Shown: piece by piece, positions 25,235 to 28,611 of the stretch
How positions within the stretch are numbered: position 1 is the stretch's first letter
Layout: each line of letters opens with the position of its first letter
Source of the DNA: Candidatus Woesearchaeota archaeon
Lineage (GTDB): Archaea; Nanobdellota; Nanobdellia; Woesearchaeales; GW2011-AR4
DNA: 40,320 bases
Reading direction: 5' to 3'
NCBI GenBank assembly: GCA_016192985.1
Contig: JACPTC010000055.1
Span: 1 to 40,320 of the forward strand
Position numbers and translations under genes: made by a program
Notes under the pieces: generated by a model
The model's database searches: none
Seen by the model: the letters and a program-made list of their open reading frames with translations, nothing else
Told to the model about the DNA's origin: nothing

Positions 25235-25313
25235 TGTGGTACTGCTTTAACGTGTTTATTTATATACCTTTGTGTTAATCTCCCCATAATTGCCATATTT
25301 GGCTGTCATAACA

Positions 25314-25346
25314 GCACTGGACATCTGCCTGCGCATAATATTTAAA
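25314..25346 (+). repeat. Imperfect direct repeat copy 1
   Basis: GCACTGGACATCTGCCTGCGCATAATATTTAAA; compare 26086-26116. Confidence 0.5.
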
Positions 25347-25355
25347 GCAGAAGTT

Positions 25356-26024
25356 CTAATTTTTATTATTTAAGGAATTAACTATACTACCTAACACTAT
25401 AATATGAACAATGAAACTAAATGCTAATTCAATTTGTACAAATAATTTTGACAAACCATTGGGAGTTTCTCCAAAAGTATTAGAGTAAAAAACTGAAGAA
25501 CTGAAATAAACATACTCCCAAGCGCCTTTTATTGGTTGTCCTTTTGAATCTAGTATTCTACTATCCTCAAAGGAACTAATTATTGTAAATATATACCCAA
25601 AAAGTATAATAGAAGTGAATGCAAGAGCTAAATAAAATATTATAATCCAAAAAATAGATTTACTTTTCCATAAATTGGAAAAATTCAGAATTAAAGTGCT
25701 TAATAAAATAGCACCAAAAGTTATGAGTAGTGTGATGATACTTATAGTAATCTCTTTTAGTACAGCAGAAGTATATACTATTGCAAAAAGAAGTAACAAT
25801 ATAAAATAAGACCATCTTAAAAAATTTGGATAAACTTTGGCCTCTTCGTCAATTTTTACCTTTAGATTATAAATCAGCTGGGAAATAGCCAAGCCAAAAG
25901 CGGCTAAAATCTTAAATGTTTCAGAGGGTATTTTTAAAAACCAAACAGTTGTAAATAATATAATCAATCCTAAATAGGTCCAAAACCAAAGATTGCTAAA
26001 TTCCGTTTGGAATTTATCTGTCAT
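25356..26024 (-). CDS. Ion-channel-like membrane protein with atypical pore loop
   Basis: Five or six TM helices; WEYVYFSSSVFYSNTFGETPNGLSKLFVQIELAFSFIVHIIVLGSIV has the layout of a 2TM pore domain. Listed ORF starts 26096; start at MTDKFQ (26024) is favoured because a TATA-like sequence lies about 30 nt upstream. Confidence 0.6.
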   Translation of the reverse strand: MTDKFQTEFSNLWFWTYLGLIILFTTVWFLKIPSETFKILAAFGLAISQLIYNLKVKIDEEAKVYPNFLRWSYFILLLLFAIVYTSAVLKEITISIITLLITFGAILLSTLILNFSNLWKSKSIFWIIIFYLALAFTSIILFGYIFTIISSFEDSRILDSKGQPIKGAWEYVYFSSSVFYSNTFGETPNGLSKLFVQIELAFSFIVHIIVLGSIVNSLNNKN

Positions 26025-26085
26025 ATAAGATTGGGACAAAAAGGTTGCTTTTATATATTTTGTTTTATTTCTATATAGAAAATAA

Positions 26086-26116
26086 GCACTGGACATTCTT
26101 GGACATAATATATAAA
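26086..26116 (+). repeat. Imperfect direct repeat copy 2
   Basis: GCACTGGACATTCTTGGACATAATATATAAA; compare 25314-25346. Confidence 0.5.
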
Positions 26117-26267
26117 CTAACTTCTACTAAATCCACAAATAATTTTTTATCAAAATTTGCTATCTTAAAATCACCTCAATCAATATTTCAACTGCTAAAT
26201 TAAATCTTTCGCTTACAGCAAAATCCTTTTACACAGTTTTTAACCAAGAAAAACTTGGTGATTTTAA

Positions 26268-27497
26268 ATGAATTTAAATAAAAATTCAATGGAAAATGTG
26301 GATTTAGTTAGCAAGAAATATCTAAATAAAAGTCCAGAGGAAAAAGCAATTATTAGGCAGCGTATTTTAGCTTATGCAAAAGAGCAGCTCAACAAAAATA
26401 TGCTTGTAACTAGGAGAGAACTTCAAAATTTATTTCATATAAGGTTATATTCCTATTTTAATTCCTTGGGAGAGGTGTATGAAAAACTTGAATTTGATAT
26501 TATAAATAATCCTAATCTCAGAAGGCAAAAGAAAGAAAAAGAACTTATCAAAAATAAGATGATAGAATATGTCAAAAATTGCTTAATTAACAATAAGAAA
26601 CCTACTGTTGCTGATATAAGGAAAAAATTTAATTCTGGCATTGAATCTTATTTCGGTAATATCACTAATTTATATAAGGAAGCTGGCATAGATTTAAAAA
26701 ACTTTTACTCTTTCTTTTACAAAGAAAAGGAAATTCAGATTACGCCTGTAATTATAGATTTTCTGAAAGATAAAGATTATGCAATAAAGAAAGTCGCTAT
26801 AAATGAGAATAGATTTGGACCCGATATAGTTGTAGAAAAAGAGGATATATCAATTCCTGTTGAGATAAAAGCAAGACATAAAAATAATATGCTCTTATAT
26901 CCAAGAGATAACCCAATTAAACAAATTCAGAGATATGTTAGGGAGTTAAATTCGCCTTTTGGAATTTTAATAACAACGACCGATAAAATTTCTCCTTACA
27001 AAGATGTGATGTCAAGTAATATTATTCTCTATAATGGACAGGATTTGCTAAATCATTTTAAAGGTAAGAAAGAACAATTAGATATAATAAATTGGATAAG
27101 AAATTCCATAGGACAAGATAAAAAAGATTTCATAAAAGAAAAACGAGAAAAGATAATTGAATTTATACAAAAAGAACATAGTGAAGGAAAATTGCCGTCA
27201 TTTAAAACTATTAGAGATTCTTTAAGAATTAATTTCTACTGCTATTTTGATAGTGTATATCAAGCTTACGAAGAGAGCGGAGTTGAATATCCATTACAGA
27301 GAAAAAAGAAGTTTGGAAGATTTTCCATGGAAGAGAAAGAAAAAATACGTGATGATATTATAAATTTTGTTAGACAAGAATACAAAAACAATCGTAGATT
27401 AAATAGGAATAGAATTGAAAATATTTTTCAAGTAGACATAAGGACTTATTTTAGCTCCAGGAAGGAAATTATCGAGGTAGCTAAAAATGGCTTATAA
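26268..27497 (+). CDS. Putative PD-(D/E)XK nuclease flanked by four HNH/homing-endonuclease-associated-type repeats
   Basis: Core RFGPDIVVEKEDISIPVEIKAR...PFGILITTTDK; four repeats of about 50 aa (two before, two after the core); SD GGTGAT before ATG. Confidence 0.7.
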   Translation: MNLNKNSMENVDLVSKKYLNKSPEEKAIIRQRILAYAKEQLNKNMLVTRRELQNLFHIRLYSYFNSLGEVYEKLEFDIINNPNLRRQKKEKELIKNKMIEYVKNCLINNKKPTVADIRKKFNSGIESYFGNITNLYKEAGIDLKNFYSFFYKEKEIQITPVIIDFLKDKDYAIKKVAINENRFGPDIVVEKEDISIPVEIKARHKNNMLLYPRDNPIKQIQRYVRELNSPFGILITTTDKISPYKDVMSSNIILYNGQDLLNHFKGKKEQLDIINWIRNSIGQDKKDFIKEKREKIIEFIQKEHSEGKLPSFKTIRDSLRINFYCYFDSVYQAYEESGVEYPLQRKKKFGRFSMEEKEKIRDDIINFVRQEYKNNRRLNRNRIENIFQVDIRTYFSSRKEIIEVAKNGL

Positions 27498-28611
27498 ATC
27501 TGGTATTTGCAATTTACCGCTTCATAATGGAACTTGCCCAAGATGGCTTTTTCCTAGAATGAAGAGATTAGCAGGGGCTATAAGCGAAGCTCTAGTTTAT
27601 GAGTATGGGCAAGAAGAATTTTTGAGAAGGCTGGCTGACCCTTTTTGGTTCCAATCTTTAGCATGCGTAATAGGGTATGATTGGCACTCTAGTGGGACAA
27701 CTACTGTTACTTGTGGAGCTCTTAAGCAAGCACTTAACAACCAAAATCTTGGCATTTCAATAGCAGGCGGCAAGGGAAAAACATCCAGAAAAACGCTAGA
27801 AGAAATAGAAAGCACTAATTTTGATTTATCAGCATCAAAAATTCAAAAACTAAAGTACTCTTCAAGGATGAGCGCAAAGGTTGACAATTGCCTAGTGCAA
27901 GACGGCTACCAGCTTTATCACCACAGTCTTGTCTATGATGAAAATGGAAATTGGGCAGTCATACAGCAAGGCATGAATTCTGAAACAAGATATGCAAGAA
28001 GATATCATTGGCTTAGCTACAATGTAGTTGATTTTGCTGAAGAGCCGCACAACGCAATCTGCTGCGACAACAAAAATAATTCAACATTGGATTTAACATC
28101 AAAAAACAATAACGAAATCAAAAAGATATCCGTTGATTTGGTTAATGATGATATTCGCCATCTGACAAAATGCTTTAATAAAAAAATTACAGCCCAAAAA
28201 ACATTAAACGATTTCAACAATAATCATAGAAAAAATACAAAAATTGTGACTATGCTGCCAAGGCATAATATAATCGATATGGGCAAAAGAAATATCGAGA
28301 TGCTTAAGAAAGCGCACGAATTACAGCCGCAGAATTATGAAGAGCTTGCCGCAATCAAAGGCATTGGCGCGAAAACAGTTAGGTCTCTTGCCCTTATTTC
28401 AGAGCTTGTTTATGGCGCTGAAATACAATGGAAAGACCCTGTGAAATTTTCATTTGCTCACGGCGGGAAAGATTCTATACCTTTTCCCATAGACAGAAAA
28501 CATTATGACAGCACAATTGAAATAATGAAAAATGCAGTAATGGATGCAAAGATTGGCGATAAGGAAAAGCTGACGGCTATAAGTAGATTGCGCGGCTTTT
28601 ATTCATCCTAA
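27487..28611 (+). CDS. DUF763 family protein with C-terminal HhH-like motif
   Basis: GICNLPLHNGTCPRWLFPRMKRLAGAI...DWHSSGTTTVTCGALK...GIAGGKGKTS-like...YHWLSYNVVDFAEEPHNAICC; IKGIGAKTVRSLALISELVYG. Confidence 0.88.
   Translation: MAYKSGICNLPLHNGTCPRWLFPRMKRLAGAISEALVYEYGQEEFLRRLADPFWFQSLACVIGYDWHSSGTTTVTCGALKQALNNQNLGISIAGGKGKTSRKTLEEIESTNFDLSASKIQKLKYSSRMSAKVDNCLVQDGYQLYHHSLVYDENGNWAVIQQGMNSETRYARRYHWLSYNVVDFAEEPHNAICCDNKNNSTLDLTSKNNNEIKKISVDLVNDDIRHLTKCFNKKITAQKTLNDFNNNHRKNTKIVTMLPRHNIIDMGKRNIEMLKKAHELQPQNYEELAAIKGIGAKTVRSLALISELVYGAEIQWKDPVKFSFAHGGKDSIPFPIDRKHYDSTIEIMKNAVMDAKIGDKEKLTAISRLRGFYSS

Follow-up and report, generated by a model that had tools for sequence, protein, structure and literature searches.

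The window analyzed here, a 40,320-nucleotide stretch from a draft Woesearchaeota genome of 1.26 Mb, carries a gene (26268..27497, + strand) that is probably a free-standing homing endonuclease gene, a selfish gene for a site-specific nuclease. Its 409-aa product contains four repeats placed around a central domain with a predicted nuclease fold and conserved catalytic residues. Genes of this family recur at a few chromosomal positions that have empty counterparts in relatives, and they have a common promoter element. Position, sporadic presence, promoter and leader RNA appear to favor homing as the role of the gene. A sequence-only reading of the window had listed defense, repair and homing side by side; the first two appear to fit this evidence less well.

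Repeats and central core of the window protein

The open reading frame of 409 codons proposed in the sequence-only reading was found in place, and so were all four of the alignable modules that it had described, two before and two after a central segment. Repeat 1 (26337..26495, aa 24-76) and Repeat 2 (26541..26690, aa 92-141) precede the core (26709..27125, aa 148-286), which is followed by Repeat 3 (27138..27284, aa 291-339) and Repeat 4 (27339..27494, aa 358-409), all on the + strand. The repeats, each about 50 aa long, are more similar to one another than shuffled sequences are in 6/6 pairs (p <= 0.003, z 4.5-10.4). When each repeat was left out in turn and scored against an HMM of the other three, it reached 25-31 bits, compared with 10-13 bits for the best of 2000 shuffles. 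Extended over relatives, an HMM of the four copies identified 39 repeat copies in 13 related proteins.

The repeats had initially been assigned to the HNH_repeat family (PF18780). As a Pfam assignment this did not hold, the curated cut-off being reached neither by the window protein nor by the near relatives scanned; as distant homology it survived. In hhalign the family repeat aligned end to end with PF18780 copies from this phylum (95.3%, score 35.6). Among 100 column shuffles the highest score was 12.8; an Lrp helix-turn-helix (HTH) profile scored 23.2 and four non-HTH profiles about 8-11. Since the profile-profile score exceeds these controls, the window repeats are probably divergent relatives of the homing-endonuclease-associated repeat; judging by the same profiles, part of the similarity is due to generic HTH shape. 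The repeats are thus probably distantly related to a repeat associated with homing endonucleases rather than to a non-nucleic-acid family, the outcome that would have counted against the original proposal.

In these archaea, canonical PF18780 repeats are fused to cores that, by motif, are LAGLIDADG-like, HNH-like or PD-(D/E)XK-like. Three proteins (L155, L157 and L159) combine 4-6 canonical repeats with a putative PD-(D/E)XK core, and one of them, L155 of genome G299, has six Pfam matches to PF18780, four on the N-terminal and two on the C-terminal side of the putative core. PF18780 proteins therefore resemble the window protein in carrying a tandem repeat of about 50 aa around nuclease cores, and the bracketed six-repeat protein comes from the taxonomic order to which the window belongs; they differ in that the repeats of the window family stay below the cut-off and lack the FGSW signature. 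We also observed a second family (L018, L020, L022, L028, L034, L056, L057, L060 and L063), in which 2-4 repeats of the same type are followed by a C-terminal PD-(D/E)XK domain with the motif VEIKDF. Its repeats are clearly homologous to those of the bracketed nuclease (98.7% profile versus profile), in contrast to which it has the core at the C-terminus with nothing behind it. In genomes G096 and G137 members of this second family lie divergent from the same amino-acid-transporter-like gene.

Taken alone, the window protein matched no Pfam, NCBIfam or PADLOC model above threshold in profile scans. Its top sub-threshold Pfam hints were HSDR_N_2 and Hjc (PF01870; 13.2 bits versus 21.1 required), and the curated cut-off of Mrr_cat (PF04471), which it also missed, was passed by five relatives (L015, L003, L002, L018 and L034; best E 7.8e-10). 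A full-length AlphaFold2 model had uncertain domain placement (pLDDT 74.9, pTM 0.37), and because of this poor mutual placement Foldseek searches with it were uninformative, a problem solved by modeling the core only (pLDDT 85.7, pTM 0.84). The core-only model runs helix-strand-strand-strand-helix-strand, the alpha-beta-beta-beta-alpha-beta topology of PD-(D/E)XK enzymes. Its top Foldseek match in the PDB is MspJI (E 1.4e-4, prob 1.00), followed by EndoMS/NucS, Hjc, Bax1 and Ecl18kI, every one a nuclease. The stretch GPDIVVEKEDISIPVEIKA has aa 184 as its first residue. A D...ExK...Q signature consisting of D186, E199 and K201 with Q219 downstream (codons at 26823, 26862, 26868 and 26922, + strand) is conserved in 6/6 full-length members of the family. 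Predicted topology and catalytic residues together place the core in the PD-(D/E)XK superfamily. The catalytic D...ExK of the sequence-only reading is thus borne out by conservation in all six full-length members and its restriction-like core by the model; the contrary outcome, a predicted central domain without a PD-(D/E)XK fold, did not arise.

The core fold and the D-ExK-Q residues are common to the window nuclease and the Mrr/MspJI restriction endonucleases (PF04471), whose recognition domain and defense context are not seen here. This affinity raises the question of antiviral defense: the protein could be a solitary Mrr/MspJI-like (type IV) restriction enzyme to which DNA-binding repeats have been added, and solitary, sporadic genes are indeed typical of defense. 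We nevertheless regard this explanation as distinctly unlikely. The window protein matches no PADLOC protein model, there is no adjoining partner methyltransferase, the neighbors are housekeeping genes at recurrent places rather than defense islands, and the presence of four repeats suggests a long, fixed target.

Insertion sites and distribution of the family

The window gene is inserted between a DEAD helicase gene and a DUF763 gene (27487..28611, + strand; PF05559, E 1.6e-131), the first 11 nt of which are also the last 11 nt of the nuclease gene. In two genomes of the same genus (G016 and G017) the nuclease is absent, the DEAD helicase and DUF763 genes are directly adjacent, and a block equal to positions 25315..25346 of the window stands directly before DUF763. 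The window retains a recognizable divergent promoter block of the two genes (25235-25350), with the promoter-type element CACTGGACA-N17-TTTAAA at 25315..25346 (+ strand) as the former DUF763 promoter, now separated from its gene by the inserted genes. DUF763 starts 2.1 kb past this block, behind the nuclease gene and a gene for a putative membrane protein of 246 aa (25356..26096, - strand; no Pfam match) that belongs to the same insertion. The DUF763 site was seen occupied only once, in the window. A target-site duplication was sought at the window insertion and none was found, the longest common words being 6 nt. Outside the window the membrane protein was found in 2 of the other 98 relatives searched and as a second copy in the window's genome (G000:C46:428-1069, 66% identical); distant copies interrupted by stop codons are present in G046 and G006.

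A survey of neighbors in homologs, as the sequence-only reading had suggested, added to the empty DUF763 site two recurrent sites, one at the 3' end of the SAHase gene and one at htpX. Of 353 genomes of the order, 16 gave matches to the nuclease, among them several that were weak or confined to the core. Full-length bracketed relatives are found in five further Woesearchaeota genomes, three of them with three repeats before the core and one after it (G002, G069 and G221) and two with the two-core-two layout of the window protein (G096 and G288). Remnants of the nuclease gene persist in G048 and G009; such decay is as expected of a selfish gene. At the SAHase site, seen in four families (G002, G069, G221 and the G048 remnant), the nuclease gene is convergent with the SAHase gene and ends at its stop codon. 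At the htpX site, seen in three families (G096, G288 and the G009 remnant), its position is immediately 3' of htpX, in the same orientation. With SAHase matched in 201/353 and htpX in 289/353 genomes, occupation of either site is rare, and no additional copies or remnants were found among the loci fetched.

Ten SAHase sites are empty (G000, G019, G006, G012, G001, G003, G014, G020, G344 and G220). Eight of these genomes are from the window's family, seven of them from its genus, the window's own genome included; in addition, the empty site of G344 is to be set against the remnant in G048 and that of G220 against the copy in G221. The nuclease is therefore an optional gene in a conserved neighborhood, with empty sites in relatives. 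Its lineage appears to track the site rather than the host. The nuclease of G002, a member of the window's genus, is 50% identical to that of G069 from another family, compared with 27% to the window protein, and the G221 nuclease is 46% identical to that of G069 versus 28% to that of G096, which is from the same family as G221. In the nuclease tree the htpX-site group splits off at 100/99 support and the SAHase-site group is supported at 80/80 to 84/87, with the window protein as a long branch.

The same map, with the SAHase adjacency as simple shared descent, could have been produced by vertical inheritance with many losses. This explanation is possible because the SAHase neighborhood is itself old. 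Repeated arrival is favored, since G002 has a distinct type of SAHase beside its copy (44-46% identical to the other SAHases) and the neighbors on the far side of the nuclease differ.

The insertions also contain companion genes, namely the membrane protein in the window, three genes in G002 and a Fic gene in G048, as would be the case if the nuclease were cargo of a larger mobile element with a preference for these positions and were not itself the mover. This is highly improbable: the companions vary by site and the nuclease is the sole common part, no recognizable transposase or integrase is present in the insertions, phage and plasmid collections gave no match, and the G221 insertion comes close to being the nuclease alone with clean flanks. 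Searches of viral contigs, phages and plasmids likewise returned no relatives of the nuclease. As a separate observation, the G002 nuclease adjoins a gene for a 261-aa protein (L043, 8202-8984, - strand) that has no Pfam match and in which the GLPDFLLVKEKEYSFLECK stretch resembles a PD-(D/E)XK domain of VRR-NUC-like type.

Promoter element and leader RNA

Upstream of the nuclease gene the window contains a promoter-type element, CACTGGACA-N13-TATATA (26087..26114, + strand). The CACTGGACA motif followed by a TATA-like box was present upstream in 7/7 loci examined (window, G002, G069, G221, G096, G288 and the G009 remnant). In six genomes (G000, G002, G009, G016, G096 and G288) the exact CACTGGACA-TATA pattern has about 11-30 sites per genome at near-fixed spacing, and a reversed control pattern gave zero matches. 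Within the genus, genes directly behind CACTGGACA include those for MCM, ribonucleotide reductase, a Cas4-like nuclease, an RNase_H_2 exonuclease, a tyrosine recombinase, an ERCC4 nuclease, DNA methylases, DUF763 and many LAGLIDADG endonucleases. A few others fall off the replication theme, namely an apparent gene for ribosomal protein L11, an isoprenoid gene and tRNA-like stretches, so that the term "replication-type regulon" describes the majority of targets and is not proof. We consider CACTGGACA-TATA to mark a candidate replication-type regulon of Woesearchaeota.

Two further groups of sites deserve mention. In four genomes the promoter precedes a gene for a conserved protein of about 100 aa (MNETRNVPEKKFSTGVITATVWQNQGKS...) that has no Pfam match (L225 235-537, L230, L248 and L263) and whose long leader may be structured too. 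At L240, L246, L253 and L274 it is followed first by a partial tRNA-like sequence and, after a gap of about 60-100 nt, by a full one (GCCGCGGTCGC...GGGTTCAAATCC...GCCGCGGCGC).

Between this promoter and the start codon, LAGLIDADG genes have a conserved structure of about 95 nt, which we term R1 (examples at L227 98-192, L231 2261-2355 and L049 5765-5859). Among its 18 pairs, 8 covary with both sides changed across 13 copies, compared with 1.2 expected and with 0/500 shuffles reaching this value, and the signal is lost when partners are slid. A covariance model of R1 matched in 37/74 genomes with up to 12 matches per genome, a count that includes some opposite-strand echoes. When full-length open reading frames behind the best matches were tested, 16/18 were LAGLIDADG_3 at E <= 1e-3, with 13 over the cut-off. 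Neither R1 nor the nuclease locus has an Rfam match, and on this ground descent of the leader from a group I intron was ruled out. One version of the leader (L272, about 2245-2281, - strand) has the inner hairpin cleanly absent between CGC and TTTAAATTCTC flanks, like a removable module. A full R1 leader is also present upstream of the PF18780-PD-(D/E)XK gene of G016 (L157), located directly downstream of MCM; the family with repeat array and C-terminal PD-(D/E)XK domain gave no firm R1 match.

Among the bracketed nucleases, R1 precedes the G288 gene and the G009 remnant, both of which are in the training set, and no match was found for the G096 nuclease. Outside the training set, weak matches occur in the right place and on the right strand in G002 (29.7 bits), G069 (26.6), the window (25.4) and G221 (24.7). 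The window match, an R1 leader core at 26190..26238 (+ strand; model positions 21-73), has an E of 0.009 in 269 kb and is weak alone. Because the stems are near-palindromic, training copies match themselves on the reverse strand at up to 41 bits. The weak matches therefore carry weight by position and not by score, and assignment of an R1 leader to the window gene is accordingly weak. In the predicted fold of 26155-26275, a 5' arm, UUAAAAUCACC (26165..26175, + strand), forms a long-range stem with GGUGAUUUUAA (26255..26265, + strand), just before the ATG at 26268, and would cover the ribosome-binding site GGUGA contained in this 3' arm (z = -1.98, with 7/200 shuffles equally stable). The G002 leader has a comparable fold and the G069 leader a shorter one only. 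Expression of T4-type homing endonucleases is restrained by RNA structure over the ribosome-binding site (PMC2988022), so occlusion of this site has a precedent in kind, not as R1 RNA.

The promoter also provides the main argument for a role in the host. A structure- or sequence-specific nuclease of DNA repair or replication, co-induced with MCM, ribonucleotide reductase and DUF763 and inherited vertically with frequent loss, would be expected to have the element that it indeed has in common with these genes and with the Cas4-like, RNase_H_2 and ERCC4 genes; the translational overlap with DUF763 and the presence of EndoMS and Hjc among the fold matches point the same way. Such a host nuclease seems unlikely to us, given matches, several of which are weak, in just 16 genomes of the order, empty sites inside the genus, kinship that appears to follow site rather than host, and promoter and leader types identical to those that precede LAGLIDADG nucleases.

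Relation to known homing systems and implications

If the gene is a free-standing homing endonuclease gene, as we consider probable, four winged-helix-like repeats, two per side, would bind a long DNA target, which the central Mrr/MspJI-type PD-(D/E)XK domain would cut. Repair of the uninvaded chromosome from the gene-carrying one would then place a copy of the gene at the identical position next to a housekeeping gene. The nuclease would be expressed from a promoter type common to replication genes, and its structured leader would hide the ribosome-binding site.

PD-(D/E)XK homing endonucleases, free-standing homing genes and PF18780 repeats are each already known. The I-Ssp6803I type (PF11645) is a PD-(D/E)XK homing endonuclease of group I introns, which has in common with the window candidate a PD-(D/E)XK core serving homing and from which the window nuclease differs by its extra DNA-binding repeats. 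No PF11645 match was found in the window protein or the relatives scanned, and no group I intron or other Rfam match at the locus. A close parallel in gene organization is intronless homing by the seg and mob free-standing endonucleases of T4, in which a homing gene is an optional gene "inserted between two conserved genes" (PMC6083498), as is the window nuclease. In T4 segB and Aeh1 mobE, too, the ribosome-binding site is covered by an RNA structure (PMC2988022, PMC6083498), as predicted for the window leader. In contrast to seg and mob genes, the window gene is a cellular archaeal one with an Mrr/MspJI-type core and bracketing repeats, for which homing is deduced from context. In the limited open-access literature searched we found no description of the repeat-bracketed combination, or of a promoter and leader common to such nucleases and LAGLIDADG genes.

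As a homing endonuclease, the window protein would belong to a rare catalytic class and have a DNA-reading scaffold flanking the blade on both sides. The bracketed layout would make its mode of recognition directly testable, with possible use as a long-site cutter. More tentatively, and with somewhat less than even confidence, we propose that two unrelated kinds of selfish nuclease, LAGLIDADG and repeat-bearing PD-(D/E)XK, have one regulatory cassette in common, a replication-gene promoter with a structured leader RNA hiding the ribosome-binding site. Such a cassette would time them to DNA replication, a stage at which an intact homing template is present. This wider pattern would wire selfish nucleases of small-genome DPANN archaea into a host replication-gene promoter type via a common RNA leader. 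The promoter motif, which precedes the genes for MCM, ribonucleotide reductase and DUF763 among others, gives an entry point to a candidate replication-type regulon in uncultivated archaea.
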